From the NCBI RefSeq assembly GCF_000238395.3, contig NZ_CP011026.1:1-64000 (forward strand): a stretch of DNA of 64,000 nt. Direction: 5' to 3'. Of this stretch, positions 2,804-8,486 are shown one piece after another. Made by a program: the position numbers and the translations under genes. The DNA is from Pseudoalteromonas arctica A 37-1-2. GTDB lineage: Bacteria > Pseudomonadota > Gammaproteobacteria > Enterobacterales > Alteromonadaceae. Within the stretch, counting starts at the first letter, position 1. Each line of letters starts with the position of its first letter. Below the pieces are notes generated by a model. It made no database searches. It was not told where the DNA came from and saw nothing but the letters and a program-made list of their open reading frames with translations.

Positions 2804-5800
2804 ATGTCTGCTAACTTATCAAAAAATGATTTAATGGCTATTTTTGAAGAAATTAAAAATGAGCAGGCTACCCAGTTTCCTCTGTCTGAACGCTTTATTA
2901 AAAAACTTTTCCGTGAAAATGTTTTAGATAAAGGCAAAGAATATTACAAGAAAGGTCAAATTACTTGGCTAGAACACACCCCTAATTTTTCTGTAGTCGA
3001 CTCTACTGTACAAGTGGATAATGGATCATCGTTTAATCAACGTATTGAGATCAGTAAAGTACCAACTGGTTATTCTGTTGATACGCATTGTACGTGTAAT
3101 GCAAAAACTAAATGCCGACACTTAGCTGCTATTTTATTTAAGCTCAAAATAGAGCACTCTGGTGAATATGGCGAAGATTACTTTATTAATGACTGGTTTA
3201 GCGAATTAAGCGCACTTAAAAGTGGTGATCAAAATACGCCATCGCAAGTATTATTATTTGTATTAGATATTGAAAATAACAAAGTATTCTTAACACCTAA
3301 AATAGCGAATGTTGAGACTAAAAAGAATTACACGCTAGGTCGAAACCTGACCGAGCAGCAGTTAAATAGTTTTGTAACGCCGAGTGACTTACTCGAAAGT
3401 GATTTTAGATTATTTAGTTGGATACGCTCACAAAATGCAGTTGGGAGTATTGAGCTAAAAGGCCAGTGGGGTTTTAGTGCCTTACAACAGTTGATAGCTA
3501 CAGAACGCCTGTTTTTCCAGCGTTCTCGAGTACCAATTAAAGCGCAATCTGGCCAAGCATTAAGTTTTAGTTGGGAGCAAGATAAAGATCTCTCACAATT
3601 AGTTATTAAGCTTGAGCAAACACAAAACTGGGCTTTATTAAAAACAACACCACCTACTTACCTCGATTTAGATCATTTAAAAGCGGGCCGTCTTCGCACC
3701 CCATTGAGTGCAGACGAAATAGCACATTTACAAACTATGCCTGCTTTGCATGACGCTAATTTTGATAGAATATACAAGCAGCTTGCCGATAACTTTGGTG
3801 CAGGTGTAATACCCCACCCTACTAATTTACAGCCAACATTGCCTAAAATCTCTAGTAATGCTGTTTTAAAAGTAACTATGGGCGATCAAGGTTTATCTCT
3901 TTCGTTGTTATTTAAGTATAAAAATAAAAACTATTTAGCAGGTGCTGCACCTGCAAGTACGATTAATAGTGCATTTGAAAATACTGTAACTAACGAGCTA
4001 ATTAACTTAGGATTTGAATTTTGTAAAGGGGGTTTACAAAGTGAACTGGTATTTACAAAGCAGTCTTCAATCCATTTGCATTGGCTAATATACGAAGTAT
4101 TCCCTGGCTTTAAGCAACGCGGTTGGCAAGTAAGTGTAAGTAAAGTAACGAGTCCTAATCCGCAGTGTGAAGTTAGTTTACATGTACACCGCGCAGCAGG
4201 GCATCAAATGCACTGCAAAGTATTGCTATGTGATGCTAAGGCATCGCTGTTGTTTACTAATACTGACCCGCTATATCAGTCATTAAATCGCCAAAGTGAA
4301 CTATTTTACTACTATCCGCTTGGTCGTGAATTTGGGGTTATCAATAAGTCAGCAATTAACTTATTAAATGAATTTAAAGAGCGTTTTGAATTTGTAAAAA
4401 CACGAGACGAATTTAATATTCCGCTTTCGTATTTACCTGAATTAGTAAAGCACACTGCTATAAACGTAGAGCTTCACGACGACTCATTAGAGCTATACTT
4501 ACAAGAGCTAAATAGTCCCGATAAAGCAATTACTAAGGTTTCATTACATGGCTTAAATGACTCAGTAACACTTCGTGAGTACCAACAGCAAGGTGTTGAC
4601 TGGCTTAGCTTTTTAAAACGTCACCAATTAGGTGGTATTTTAGCTGATGACATGGGCCTGGGTAAAACCTTGCAAGTTATTGCATTTTTAGCCAGTACAT
4701 TTAACCGCCCGCAAGCGGGCCCTACACTTATAGTGTGTCCAACTAGTTTGGTGAGTAACTGGAAAAACGAAATTATTAAGTTTGCTAAAAGCTTAAAAGT
4801 CACCACTATTTTTGGTTCAAATCGTAACGATCCTTTACAGCACTTAGCGCAAGCGCAGTGTATACTTACTACATATCCACTTTTAAAGCGTGATATTGCA
4901 TATTATTCGCCATTATATTTTGAAAATATAATCCTCGACGAAGCACAATACATTAAAAACGATACCGCACAGGTTTCGCGATTAGTTAAACGCTTAAATG
5001 CCGACTTTAAACTTTGTTTAAGTGGTACTCCAATCGAGAATAATTTACTTGAGCTTAAATCGTTACTCGATTTTGCTATGCCATCGTTACTTGGGTCTCA
5101 AGCCCACTTTAAGCAGCACTTTCAAACGCCTATTGAGCGTGAAGCTGATATGGAGAGAGCTGAGCAGTTAAAAGCGTTAATTATGCCTTTTATAATGCGC
5201 CGCACTAAAGCACAAGTAGCGCAAGAGCTGCCTGAAAAAACAGAGCTAACTAAAGAGTTTGAGTTTGAGCCTAAGCAAAAAGAAATGTATCAAGGTATTA
5301 CACGTTCATTAGAAGAGAAGCTAATAGACTTATTTGCCGAACAAGGCGCACAAAAAAGTAAACTTGCATTTTTAGAGGCACTTTTAAAGTTAAGGCAAAT
5401 TTGTTGCCACCCTAAATTAATAGATCCAGACACTCAAGCAGGCTCTGCTAAGCTTGAATGGTTAACAACACACTTACCGCTTATGTTAAGTCTCGGTCGT
5501 AAAATTATTATATTTAGTCAGTTCACATCGGCACTTGATTTAATAGCCCAACGCCTCGAAGAAATAAACATTAACTTTAGTATGCTTACGGGCCAAACGC
5601 GCCACCGAGATAAAGTAATCGACGAGTTTACCAGTGGTAAAACATCAGTGTTTTTAATTAGCTTAAAAGCTGGCGGTACAGGCCTTAACCTTACACAAGC
5701 CGATACAGTTATTCACTTTGATCCATGGTGGAACCCTGCTGTAGAAAAACAAGCGACTGATAGAGCTTACCGTATTGGCCAAACTAACCCTGTATTTGTG

Positions 5801-5950
5801 TATAAGCTCATAATGAGTAATTCAATAGAGCAAAAAGTATTTAAAATGCAACAAGACAAACAAGCCCTTGTAGATGCGTTATTTACTGATAAATCAATGA
5901 GCTTTACAAAGTTTGATGAACAACAAATGTTATCGCTAATTAAAAACTAA
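2804..5950 (+). CDS. SNF2-family DEAD/DEAH helicase with SWIM zinc finger
   Basis: Swi2/Snf2 ATPase predicted to translocate on double-stranded DNA and remodel bound proteins. It is 1048 residues long. A SWIM zinc finger lies near the N terminus (C96-x-C98 ... C104-x-H106, CTCNAKTKCRH). The central region is SNF2-associated and of unknown fold. The ATPase core starts near residue 595, with Walker A DDMGLGKT at about 614-621, a DEAQ box at about 711, and motif III SGTPIEN. The C-terminal helicase lobe has GGTGLNL and the ATDRAYRIGQ motif VI around residue 980. This is the bacterial RapA/HepA-like SNF2 plus SWIM arrangement. The ATG at 2804 has only a weak GAG signal. A perfect TGTAAA-GGGGG-TTTACA palindrome sits inside the gene at 4021-4039. 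The physiological target is unknown. Confidence 0.88.
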   Translation: MSANLSKNDLMAIFEEIKNEQATQFPLSERFIKKLFRENVLDKGKEYYKKGQITWLEHTPNFSVVDSTVQVDNGSSFNQRIEISKVPTGYSVDTHCTCNAKTKCRHLAAILFKLKIEHSGEYGEDYFINDWFSELSALKSGDQNTPSQVLLFVLDIENNKVFLTPKIANVETKKNYTLGRNLTEQQLNSFVTPSDLLESDFRLFSWIRSQNAVGSIELKGQWGFSALQQLIATERLFFQRSRVPIKAQSGQALSFSWEQDKDLSQLVIKLEQTQNWALLKTTPPTYLDLDHLKAGRLRTPLSADEIAHLQTMPALHDANFDRIYKQLADNFGAGVIPHPTNLQPTLPKISSNAVLKVTMGDQGLSLSLLFKYKNKNYLAGAAPASTINSAFENTVTNELINLGFEFCKGGLQSELVFTKQSSIHLHWLIYEVFPGFKQRGWQVSVSKVTSPNPQCEVSLHVHRAAGHQMHCKVLLCDAKASLLFTNTDPLYQSLNRQSELFYYYPLGREFGVINKSAINLLNEFKERFEFVKTRDEFNIPLSYLPELVKHTAINVELHDDSLELYLQELNSPDKAITKVSLHGLNDSVTLREYQQQGVDWLSFLKRHQLGGILADDMGLGKTLQVIAFLASTFNRPQAGPTLIVCPTSLVSNWKNEIIKFAKSLKVTTIFGSNRNDPLQHLAQAQCILTTYPLLKRDIAYYSPLYFENIILDEAQYIKNDTAQVSRLVKRLNADFKLCLSGTPIENNLLELKSLLDFAMPSLLGSQAHFKQHFQTPIEREADMERAEQLKALIMPFIMRRTKAQVAQELPEKTELTKEFEFEPKQKEMYQGITRSLEEKLIDLFAEQGAQKSKLAFLEALLKLRQICCHPKLIDPDTQAGSAKLEWLTTHLPLMLSLGRKIIIFSQFTSALDLIAQRLEEININFSMLTGQTRHRDKVIDEFTSGKTSVFLISLKAGGTGLNLTQADTVIHFDPWWNPAVEKQATDRAYRIGQTNPVFVYKLIMSNSIEQKVFKMQQDKQALVDALFTDKSMSFTKFDEQQMLSLIKN
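4021..4039 (-). repeat. Dispersed palindrome TGTAAA-N5-TTTACA (copy 1)
   Basis: TTGTAAAGGGGGTTTACAA lies within the SNF2 gene, where it encodes the CKGG stretch. The G5 spacer is on the + strand. The arms are perfect over 7 bp. It is one of ten copies in the window and a candidate ParB-binding (parS-like) site. Confidence 0.7.
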
Positions 5951-6012
5951 ATTGATTTAAAAAGTTTTGATCTTTTTATGAACTTAATTAAAAAGCGGAC
6001 GTCTACTATTAT

Positions 6013-6115
6013 GCTTGTTGGTTAATTGCAGTTAGCACAAGCATCATGTTGATTCCCCATTTAGTTACTAATTTTAGTAATGATTAAGCCAGCCCATTTT
6101 GAGTTGGCTTTTTTT
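6013..6115 (+). ncRNA. Small RNA, tandem array unit 1
   Basis: Predicted ~103-nt RNA. The promoter matches the sigma-E pattern: GAACTT at 5980-5985, a 15-nt spacer, then GTCTAC at 6001-6006, with the predicted start 7 nt later. A 5' hairpin follows (CTTGT..GTTAA / TTAGC..ACAAG), then a single-stranded TTGATTCCCC, a TTACTAA/TTAGTAA hairpin, and a terminator stem GCCAGCCCA/TGAGTTGGC with seven T. There is no open reading frame. It is the first of five tandem units spaced 188-191 bp (the last is more distant). Inferred to act like the sigma-E-dependent regulators of outer-membrane mRNAs; targets are unknown. Confidence 0.65.
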
Positions 6116-6200
6116 ATGCCTAAAATTTAGCGTTCGGCACTTATTTTAAAAGTTTTTACTTTTTTATGAACTTAATTAAAAAACGGACGTCTACTATTAT

Positions 6201-6306
6201 GCTTGTTGATTAATTGCAGTTAATACAAGTTTTCATGTTGATTCCCCCCATTTAGTTACTAATTTTAGTAATGATTGAGCCAGCCCATTTTGAGTTGGCT
6301 TTTTTT
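6201..6306 (+). ncRNA. Small RNA, tandem array unit 2
   Basis: Second unit, same design: GAACTT at 6168-6173, 15-nt spacer, GTCTAC at 6189-6194. The 5' hairpin inner stem is ATTAA/TTAAT where unit 1 has GTTAA/TTAGC, a compensatory G-C to A-T change that supports pairing in RNA. The C-run is longer (GATTCCCCCC). The terminator is the same as in unit 1. Confidence 0.65.
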
Positions 6307-6391
6307 ATGTCCAAAATTTAGTGTGCAGTACTTATTTTAAAAGTTTTTATTTTTTTATGAACTTAATTAAAAAAGTGGCGTCTATTATTAT

Positions 6392-6497
6392 GCTTGTTGA
6401 TTAATTGCAGTTAATACAAGTTTTCATGTTGATTCCCCCCATTTAGTTACTAATTTTAGTAATGATTGAGCCAGCCCATTTTGAGTTGGCTTTTTTT
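6392..6497 (+). ncRNA. Small RNA, tandem array unit 3
   Basis: Third unit, nearly identical to unit 2 over the RNA. Promoter: GAACTT at 6359-6364, 15-nt spacer, GTCTAT at 6380-6385. It keeps the six-C single-stranded run, the TTACTAA/TTAGTAA hairpin and the GCCAGCCCA/TGAGTTGGC terminator followed by seven T. Confidence 0.65.
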
Positions 6498-6582
6498 ATG
6501 TCCAAAATTTAGCATTCAATTTTTATTTTAAAAGTTTTGATCTTTTTATGAACTTAATTCAAAGAGCGGCGTCTACTATTAT

Positions 6583-6688
6583 GCTTGTTGATTAATTGCA
6601 GTTAATACAGGTTTTATGTTGATTTCCCCCTATTTGATTACTAATTTTAGTAATGATTAAGCCAGTTCATTTTGAACTGGCTTTTTTT
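6583..6688 (+). ncRNA. Small RNA, tandem array unit 4
   Basis: Fourth unit. Promoter: GAACTT at 6550-6555, 15-nt spacer, GTCTAC at 6571-6576. The terminator stem is GCCAGTTCA/TGAACTGGC, fully paired, where units 1-3 have a C-A mismatch and a G-U pair; sequence changes while pairing is kept. The C-run reads GATTTCCCCCTATT. Confidence 0.63.
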
Positions 6689-6788
6689 ATGCCTATAATT
6701 TGATTTGTTTAAATCAACCCGAATAAAAATAAATGATCTTTCGTAAATTAATTTGAATTAATTATTTTGTTTTCCGGTCTACTCTAAT

Positions 6789-6935
6789 GCCTGTTGTTAT
6801 ATAGCCTCACCCAGTAATATTAGTTATTTTGGTGATTATGTATTTAAGTTGCAGCTTACTCGGGCACATGTTGATTTTCCCTTTGATTACTTAATTTAGT
6901 AATACTTGACCAGCTTATTTTGAGCTGGTTTTTTT
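6789..6935 (+). ncRNA. Small RNA, tandem array unit 5 (diverged)
   Basis: Fifth, diverged and longer unit. The promoter is weaker (GAATTA at 6755-6760, 16-nt spacer, GTCTAC at 6777-6782). An internal expansion of ~40 nt precedes the recognisable half: TGTTGATTTTCCC, the ATTACT/AGTAAT hairpin, and terminator ACCAGCTTA/TGAGCTGGT with seven T. It may be an older copy or one with a different target. Confidence 0.5.
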
Positions 6936-7019
6936 ATGTCTGTAATTTCTTTGCTCCCCTACTTCTATTGCTTGTTATTGGTTATGATGGCATGTCTCTA
7001 AATTTTATAAGTTTATTTT

Positions 7020-8486
7020 ATGCTCACTCAAGTACTCACTAATATTGATTGGCTAAGCGCCGGTGCTGGTGTTGCGTTAGGCGTTGTATTTTACGGCGTT
7101 GTATCAACACAGCTTCGCAAAAAGCTACATCTACAAATAAGCGAACAGCAGCAACAGCTTTCCCTATTACAAAATCAATTTGATAATAAAGAGCTGCAAT
7201 ATAGTGCCTTGCAAGAAGATCACGAACTGCTAGAACATACTCACCAAGAACAGCGCGATGAAGCCCAGCATTTTAAAACGCGTTTTAGCGAACAAGAAAA
7301 ACAAAGCATTCAATACAATCACTTTTGGCGTAAAGCCGAAGGCGAGCTTGCAGCGCTTCGTGAGCAATATAATCAACGCGATGTTGAATATAATAATATG
7401 CGCACCACCCTCGAGCAAAAACAACAAAGCTTTACCGAGCAACTCGCGCAAATTGAGCAAAGTAAAAATATGCTCAAAAAAGAATTTGAAAACCTAGCCA
7501 ATAAGATTCTAGAAGAAAAATCACAAAGCTTTAAAACCTTAAATCAAGAAAGCATTGAACAATTATTAAAACCGGTTCAAGGCGAGCTAAAAGGCTTTAG
7601 AGAAAAAATGGAATCAATACATGTTGAAGACATAAAACAACGAACCGCGCTTAAAACCGAGCTATTGCATTTGCAAGCTAAAAGCCAAGCTATAACAGAT
7701 CAAGCCGACAAGCTCAGCAACGCGTTACAAGGGCAAAAGAAAACCCAAGGTAATTGGGGCGAACTCATGCTCGAAAACGTCTTAGATAGCGCTGGCTTAC
7801 GTGCTGGCGTTGATTATAAGCGCGAAGTGTCGTTTAACACTGAAGATGGCCGCTTACGCCCTGATGTAGTTGTTTACTTACCACAAGGCCGCCACTTAGT
7901 CATTGATGCTAAAACATCATTAAATGCTTATACACGCTATGTGAACGCTGAAAATGAGCTAGATGCTAATCAAGCAATTAAAGAGCATGTAAACGCCGTT
8001 ACAGCACGTATTAATGAGCTTGCGAGTAAATCGTACGACCGTTTACCAGGGCTTAATTCGCCTGAAGTTGTGGTTATGTTTGTACCAATAGAATCAGCTT
8101 TTGTAGAAGCACTTAAATATCAAAGTGATATTTACCAACAAGCAATCGAAAAAAATATACTGGTAGCTACACCTACTACCCTGCTTACTAGTTTAAATAT
8201 TGTTAAACAGCTTTGGCGTTTTGAAGAGCAAACCAAATACTCAAAAGAGCTGGCAAATCGGGCTGAGCGTTTTTATAACAAGCTCAATGGTTTTTTATTA
8301 AGTATGGAAGGCGTAGGTAAGCAGCTTGATAAAGCGAAAGAAAGTTACGACAAAGCGTTCTCGCAATTATACCGCGGTAAAGGTAATTTAATTAAACAAG
8401 CATCAGAGTTTAAAGAGCTTGGTGTATCGGTACAAAAAGAGTTACCTAGTGAGAGCGTTGAACGTGCGCAGCTAGAGCTTGATTAG
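7020..8486 (+). CDS. rmuC: DNA recombination protein RmuC
   Basis: RmuC-family protein, thought to limit inversion/recombination at short repeats in E. coli. The 488-residue protein has one N-terminal membrane segment (about residues 15-31, AGAGVALGVVFYGVVS), a long charged coiled coil (about 35-230, many Q/E/K), then the RmuC nuclease-like domain (about 235-450) with the conserved stretches GNWGELMLENVLD, LRPDVVVYLPQGRHLVIDAKTSL and VVMFVPIESAF. Length is normal for the family. The start at 7020 is the only one giving the membrane anchor. It stands alone after the small-RNA array. Confidence 0.93.
   Translation: MLTQVLTNIDWLSAGAGVALGVVFYGVVSTQLRKKLHLQISEQQQQLSLLQNQFDNKELQYSALQEDHELLEHTHQEQRDEAQHFKTRFSEQEKQSIQYNHFWRKAEGELAALREQYNQRDVEYNNMRTTLEQKQQSFTEQLAQIEQSKNMLKKEFENLANKILEEKSQSFKTLNQESIEQLLKPVQGELKGFREKMESIHVEDIKQRTALKTELLHLQAKSQAITDQADKLSNALQGQKKTQGNWGELMLENVLDSAGLRAGVDYKREVSFNTEDGRLRPDVVVYLPQGRHLVIDAKTSLNAYTRYVNAENELDANQAIKEHVNAVTARINELASKSYDRLPGLNSPEVVVMFVPIESAFVEALKYQSDIYQQAIEKNILVATPTTLLTSLNIVKQLWRFEEQTKYSKELANRAERFYNKLNGFLLSMEGVGKQLDKAKESYDKAFSQLYRGKGNLIKQASEFKELGVSVQKELPSESVERAQLELD

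Follow-up and report, generated by a model that had tools for sequence, protein, structure and literature searches.

What occupies the 1.07 kb between an SNF2/DEAD-box helicase gene and rmuC, two co-oriented genes near the start of contig C2 (NZ_CP011026.1; 783,876 bases) of Pseudoalteromonas arctica A 37-1-2? The window analysed here comprises the first 64,000 nucleotides of this contig, one of the three that make up the 4.72 Mb genome, and its best DNA matches are Pseudoalteromonas chromids of 0.68–0.91 Mb filed as plasmids (8/8 records). Positions 161–2377 hold a gene for a ParA-type ATPase and another frame, ParB-like by eye and without a Pfam match, as is expected close to a chromid origin. 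From the sequence we propose that the interval probably holds a row of small RNA (sRNA) genes which switches off nutrient-receptor proteins when the envelope is damaged.

The five units and their surroundings

The array (positions 5980–6935) consists of five non-coding units, four tight and one diverged (Table 1), as the earlier note had described it. The window's list of open reading frames holds none of at least 80 aa in 5951–7019, and a coding gene in the array was therefore rejected. Each unit runs from a promoter through a 5' hairpin, an unpaired stretch AUGUUGAUU(U)C3-6 and a second hairpin to an intrinsic terminator made of a stem and seven T, the latter present in all five. In units 1–4 the unpaired stretch, hereafter the putative seed, reads AUGUUGAUU(U)C4-6; the C-runs of units 1 to 5 measure 4, 6, 6, 5 and 3, in agreement with the three to six C noted previously. 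The spacing of 188–191 bp reported at the same time holds for the tight units (188, 191, 191) and fails for unit 5. Between the promoters of units 4 and 5 the distance is 205 nt; the RNA of unit 5 exceeds the others by about 40 nt and has a longer 5' hairpin region, and its seed is AUGUUGAUUUUCCC. Units 2 and 3 share the same sequence over 112 nt.

Table 1. Features of the array and its flanking genes (window positions; sRNA ends are predicted)
Feature	Position	Strand	Basis or remark
SNF2/DEAD-box helicase gene	2804..5950	+	Pfam SNF2-rel_dom 5e-75; fixed upstream neighbour in loci compared
Unit 1 putative sigma-E-type promoter, GAACTT-N15-GTCTA	5980..6005	+	motif read; conserved form
Unit 1 putative sRNA	6010..6115	+	fold z -3.3; covariance model 130 bits
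Unit 1 unpaired seed AUGUUGAUUCCCC	6046..6058	+	fold and sequence
Unit 1 intrinsic terminator	6088..6115	+	fold and sequence
Unit 2 putative sigma-E-type promoter, GAACTT-N15-GTCTA	6168..6193	+	motif read
Unit 2 putative sRNA	6198..6306	+	fold z -2.9; covariance model 123.6 bits
Unit 2 seed AUGUUGAUUCCCCCC	6235..6249	+	sequence
Unit 2 intrinsic terminator	6279..6306	+	sequence
Unit 3 putative sigma-E-type promoter, GAACTT-N15-GTCTA	6359..6384	+	motif read
Unit 3 putative sRNA	6389..6497	+	identical to unit 2
Unit 3 seed AUGUUGAUUCCCCCC	6426..6440	+	sequence
Unit 3 intrinsic terminator	6470..6497	+	sequence
Unit 4 putative sigma-E-type promoter, GAACTT-N15-GTCTA	6550..6575	+	motif read
Unit 4 putative sRNA	6580..6688	+	fold z -4.4; covariance model 120.8 bits
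Unit 4 seed AUGUUGAUUUCCCCC	6616..6630	+	first 13 nt pair perfectly with receptor start G000:C2:481629-481641
Unit 4 intrinsic terminator	6661..6688	+	sequence
Unit 5 promoter variant, GAATTA-N16-GTCTA	6755..6781	+	motif read
Unit 5 putative sRNA, diverged paralogue, longer 5' hairpin region	6787..6935	+	fold z -3.2; covariance model 64.9 bits over 6833-6936
Unit 5 seed AUGUUGAUUUUCCC	6868..6881	+	sequence
Unit 5 intrinsic terminator	6910..6935	+	sequence
rmuC, usual downstream neighbour	7020..8486	+	Pfam RmuC 1.6e-95

When the window was screened with PADLOC models, the SNF2 protein scored as DpdE-like (893 bits) and the RmuC protein as RTasRmuC (346 bits); both are taken for housekeeping relatives rather than defence genes.

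The five RNAs fold better than their shuffles (z from -2.9 to -4.4, single-sequence folds). With 33 units picked to be diverse, 93.1% of 879 cells pair as the three-helix structure requires; sliding the 3' partners by 1–3 columns lowers this to 24–49%. Changes on both sides occur in 12 of 27 pairs. The compensatory changes in the stems that had been named before were seen again and belong to this larger set. This covariation supports folding of the units as RNA; conservation of the unpaired stretch equals that of the stems.

No Rfam family reached its cut-off in the window, which agrees with the earlier statement that no described family was recognised. RybB, MicA and VrrA are absent from the 29 weak Rfam matches in 5900–7050, and VqmR (RF02834) scored 24.9 bits against a cut-off of 76. 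A CsrB/RsmY-type (Csr) sRNA was rejected because the five RNAs, read by eye, contain no GGA motifs and the Csr sRNAs Pf1–3 of the genus are located elsewhere, and a dispersed repeat because the model matches in the same genome are five, all inside the array. With two or more near-identical adjacent members, the putative genes are tandem siblings. A published description of the tandem array was not found in the open-licence literature; it may correspond to an unnamed entry among the predicted sRNAs of strain BSW20308 (PMC11882849).

Promoters and distribution within the genus

The earlier note had read GAACTT, a spacer and GTCTA in every unit. This stands for units 1–4, where the spacer is exactly 15 nt, and not for the -35 element of unit 5, although N16 and GTCTA can be read there. 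In unit-5-type loci TTGAAT replaces TGAACT in 11/11 examined, and since the variant -35 is kept in all of them, it suggests that unit 5 is a sibling under different control rather than a decaying copy.

The motif GAACTT-N14..17-GTCTA occurs nine times in the 4.72 Mb genome, four of these within a 600-bp stretch of the array, and the reversed control also occurs nine times; the motif alone is not rare, and it is clustering and conservation that carry weight. We assembled a promoter set from the 150 best model matches and 21 divergent units, leaving out the 23 weakest matches, which include unit-5-type copies and their variant -35. GAAC-N15/16-GTCT is present in 145 of the 147 distinct units with enough upstream sequence (spacer of 15 in 139 and of 16 in six); the exceptions are one TTAACT and one unit with a deleted 5' hairpin. 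In genome G001, one unit (L039:2037-2146) lacks the 5' hairpin, apparently through a deletion bounded by two GTTGATT words, and retains promoter, seed, hairpin 2 and terminator.

A single gene of the genome scores as rpoE over the family cut-off, and an rseA-type gene comes after it. The promoter of rpoE itself is GAACTT-N15-GTCAGA, with the same hexamers in 5/5 other Pseudoalteromonas rpoE loci. Among 80 rpoE loci, 75 of them outside the genus, GAACTT-N15/16-GTC lies within 500 nt in 51 and is absent from 29; exact GTCTAC or GTCTAT follows GAACTT-N15/16 in 17 (reversed control 0/80). Because of the form conserved in 145/147 units and the likeness to rpoE promoters, we read the unit promoters as sigma-E promoters, with two caveats: rpoE of the genus itself carries GTCAGA, and across the genome the bare motif does not outnumber its reversal. 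The fit to the RpoE pattern claimed earlier holds for promoters of the type of units 1–4. A sigma-70 promoter was set aside, as the scan placed no plus-strand site at the unit starts and its two plus-strand sites are at unit ends.

A covariance model built from 21 units, a check already named in the earlier note, was searched in 108 Pseudoalteromonas genomes and matched 89 of them, with one match in 49, two in nine, three in 10, four in 10, five in eight and six in three (positions are known for the matches listed; the weakest single matches have E up to 6e-4). The description as a multi-copy family therefore applies to the 40 model-positive genomes with two to six matches and not to the 49 with a single one. 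The SNF2 gene stands directly upstream of the array in the loci compared, and in seven divergent genomes (L051-L054, L383-L385) the unit directly follows it; rmuC comes next in most loci and is absent from the stretch examined in eight array loci (L022, L029-L032, L038, L068, L069). Among the 19 model-negative genomes, SNF2 is matched at E 1e-60 in 18 and not in G003. In 17 of these 18 the SNF2 stop codon is followed by a diverged unit (E of 1e-8 to 0.09 with the second model; L299-L301, which score weakest, rest also on a visible promoter and terminator), and in one SNF2-positive locus (L298) the contig ends after the -35 element. Hence 106 of the 108 genomes appear to carry a unit, in one the contig ends too early to decide and one (G003) appears to lack it.

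In a sample of 196 genomes of the family, the second model had no match outside the genus, its eight matches being the eight genomes of the genus in that sample. Neither promoter nor seed was found at 22 non-genus SNF2 loci, whose helicases may not be orthologues. The best reading is a family that is genus-wide within Pseudoalteromonas, tandem-amplified and, as far as found, previously undescribed. Genome G089 has a displaced copy (L055:2506-2615) beyond the usual interval, downstream of rmuC by about 5 kb.

Complementarity of the seed to receptor starts

Two sites in the genome match the exact antisense of AUGUUGAUUUCCC: one is unit 4 itself, and the other immediately precedes the start codon of a receptor-like gene (C2:480131-481627; GGGAAATCAACATTATG), so that the unit 4 seed and this start form a perfect complement of 13 nt. 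The protein scores over the cut-off for CarboxypepD_reg and, on the part of the sequence used, at 23.4 against a cut-off of 23.9 bits for Plug, and looks like a TonB-dependent receptor. In close orthologues from other species the leader differs and the pairing stretch is perfect or has few changes. With start sites picked heuristically, 28 of 30 close-orthologue starts were recognised, pairing at -14.2 to -20.1 kcal/mol; 27 are from model-positive genomes, and that of G070 gives -15.4. The two unrecognised starts also read ACACGGGAAACAACA before ATG. A further set of 40 starts came from orthologues or paralogues: the pairing energy is -12.2 to -17.2 kcal/mol in 32, seven had initially been placed at an upstream ATG (-2.8 to -6.6, with -16.2 at the internal start) and L297 gives -9.6. 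GGGAA precedes 70/70 orthologous or paralogous starts and the AUCAACA half varies in distant orthologues; since the GGGAA core alone is strictly kept there, a Shine-Dalgarno sequence may by itself explain this conservation, in part or whole.

The earlier note had supposed that the C-rich stretch could pair with ribosome-binding sites and had pointed to outer-membrane protein starts, here represented by TonB-dependent receptors. The starts of 54 Plug-domain proteins, paralogues and so not independent in the p values, pair better than 250 controls (genes of 15 chosen 20-kb stretches and of the window, receptors left in), with p of 1.2e-6, 8.3e-7, 1.0e-5 and 1.7e-4 for the seeds of units 1, 2, 4 and 5. 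The excess shrinks when 40 secreted-like genes serve as controls (p 0.002, 0.010, 0.032 and 0.010, respectively). The receptor difference of the unit 4 seed is reached by 0/60 shuffles and by 0/60 shuffles that keep the C-run, the latter giving about half of the effect (-1.24 of -2.36), because receptor starts are GGG-rich and any C-rich RNA pairs somewhat with them: GGG is found at -20..-1 in 23/54 receptor starts versus 38/250 controls (p 2e-5). Two hairpin segments of the sRNA gave no difference with receptors (p 0.77 and 0.90). GGGA-AATCA-like starts number 12/54 versus 9/250, a pattern devised after seeing the starts and therefore given no weight as a test. The excess complementarity agrees with the supposition, and TonB-dependent receptors are predicted as the likely targets.

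The pattern GGGAAATCAACATY has 23 sites in 22 of the 108 genomes, versus three for the reversed control. The receptor start accounts for eight and an sRNA unit for one; of the remaining 14, ten fall within long reading frames (P-loop GKST codons in nine of the ten, by eye) and four do not. The 19 model-negative genomes were dropped as sRNA-free controls for the receptor start, since 17 carry diverged copies; no genome shown to be without the sRNA keeps the receptor, and this precludes a loss test.

The strongest pairing overall belongs to a control gene, at the chrR start (L425, near 16700), with about -25 kcal/mol, beyond any receptor, and reaches -22 kcal/mol or better in 6/7 annotated chromids. 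As a target chrR was set aside: the codons involved overlap the sigma gene, and their conservation is accounted for by the protein.

Proposed action, alternatives and known relatives

We consider it likely that each unit is a stand-alone sigma-E sRNA gene whose seed blocks translation of TonB-dependent receptors under envelope stress. Such stress would release RpoE (sigma-E) from RseA, and RpoE would then transcribe each unit from its own GAACTT-N15-GTCTA promoter to its own terminator, giving a base-pairing sRNA of about 105–110 nt, or about 150 nt for unit 5. These U-tailed sRNAs would use Hfq, and the exposed AUGUUGAUU(U)CCC between hairpins 1 and 2 would pair with the ribosome-binding site of receptor mRNAs. 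Translation of the TonB-dependent receptors, of which the genome has 54, would be blocked by covering this site, and fewer receptors would mean a lower load on the outer-membrane assembly machinery. Tandem duplication (one to six copies) would raise dosage, and small differences in the C-run may tune target choice. Synteny, covariation, promoter form and complementarity all favour the multi-copy sigma-E-type family suggested earlier. The non-coding arm of the sigma-E response has so far been described for enteric bacteria and Vibrio; if our proposal is true, it would have a counterpart in a marine genus with many TonB-dependent receptors in the outer membrane, envelope stress would be tied to nutrient uptake, and the one to six copies would form a natural series for sRNA gene dosage.

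Real sRNA genes might instead be driven by another ECF sigma factor, for example a ChrR-controlled one on the same replicon. The genome has seven further weak ECF-like frames, two of them on C2, ECF-ChrR pairs are annotated on chromids, and GTCTA differs from the GTCAGA of the genus' own rpoE promoter; nevertheless, the unit form with GTCTAC or GTCTAT is that of the 17/80 rpoE promoters and the sRNA is found in nearly all species of the genus examined, and we regard this alternative as unlikely. Equally unlikely, or slightly more so, is that the sRNAs are under sigma-E but act mainly on other envelope or regulatory mRNAs, chrR for instance, the receptor excess then reflecting GGG-rich ribosome-binding sites. 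The share of the excess due to the C-run and the strong chrR pairing speak for such targets, whereas the contribution of the AUGUUGAUU part beyond the C-run (0/60 shuffles) and the coding explanation of the chrR site speak for receptors. That the units are merely a repeated intergenic element, or a terminator/attenuator array between SNF2 and rmuC lacking any trans-acting function, is very improbable: their position between co-oriented genes and their ready duplication (units 2 and 3) would suit it, but they own conserved promoters, their unpaired stretch is conserved like the stems, distant species retain single copies and, unlike dispersed repeats, the model matches within this genome are confined to the array.

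The receptor-directed sigma-E sRNAs proposed here can be set beside known systems. RybB has its seed at the 5' end, whereas that of the array lies between two hairpins; VrrA and MicV are unlinked single genes, whereas the array is one tandem row on a chromid. Near-identical copies, as in the array, are also found in OmrA/OmrB, PrrF1/PrrF2, the csRNAs, Qrr and LhrC1-5, another multi-copy sibling group, all of which are controlled by other regulators. CcsR1-4 of Rhodobacter are tandem, C-rich stress sRNAs, alphaproteobacterial and with other sigma factors and another motif.

RybB and MicA of Escherichia coli and Salmonella are short Hfq-type sRNAs under sigma-E control which repress outer-membrane proteins at the 5' UTR (PMC7602753, PMC11005410), and VrrA and MicV of Vibrio cholerae are two sigma-E sRNAs with one common seed domain and outer-membrane targets (PMC7602753). 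As a prediction, the array shares with RybB and MicA the sigma-E control, the short form and the outer-membrane targets; it differs in having no Rfam match to either, tandem copies, and TonB-dependent receptors as predicted targets, and VrrA is likewise not among its Rfam matches. It would work by the same logic as these sigma-E sRNAs, with no homology claimed. OmrA/OmrB, PrrF1/PrrF2, the csRNAs and Qrr are described as near-identical sRNA genes in tandem or multiple copies with overlapping roles, and the accessible portion of that source reports no sigma-E tandem array (PMC4211561). Within the genus, the Csr sRNAs Pf1, Pf2 and Pf3 of Pseudoalteromonas fuliginea BSW20308 are encoded on the first chromosome, with 25, 21 and 9 GGA motifs (PMC11882849); the array, of which the same strain carries four units, sits on the second chromosome.

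A broader picture, which we hold tentatively and put a little short of an even chance, is that of a sigma-E sRNA family of Pseudoalteromonas' own beside SNF2, up to six-fold, with an internal anti-ribosome-binding-site seed directed against receptors and with unit 5 as a differently controlled, promoter-variant sibling; this family and two candidates on chromosome 1 would jointly make up the non-coding arm of the envelope response of a receptor-rich outer membrane, replacing the single-copy RybB/MicA/VrrA type. At the first candidate (G000:C1:1116466-1116491, minus strand; L013:1434-1526), GAACTT-N15-GTCTA is followed at once by an RNA of about 64 nt with a terminator, z of -3.0 and the word CUUGUUGAUU; receptor pairing of its 5' end is not above controls, and the element is a candidate further sigma-E sRNA. 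The second (G000:C1:2772171-2772197, plus strand; L107:1501-1604) has the pattern GAACTT-N16-TCTGA, a candidate third sigma-E-type promoter, followed by a hairpin RNA of about 77 nt, a candidate further sRNA, with UUCAUCCCUGAA, a strong terminator and z of -3.4.
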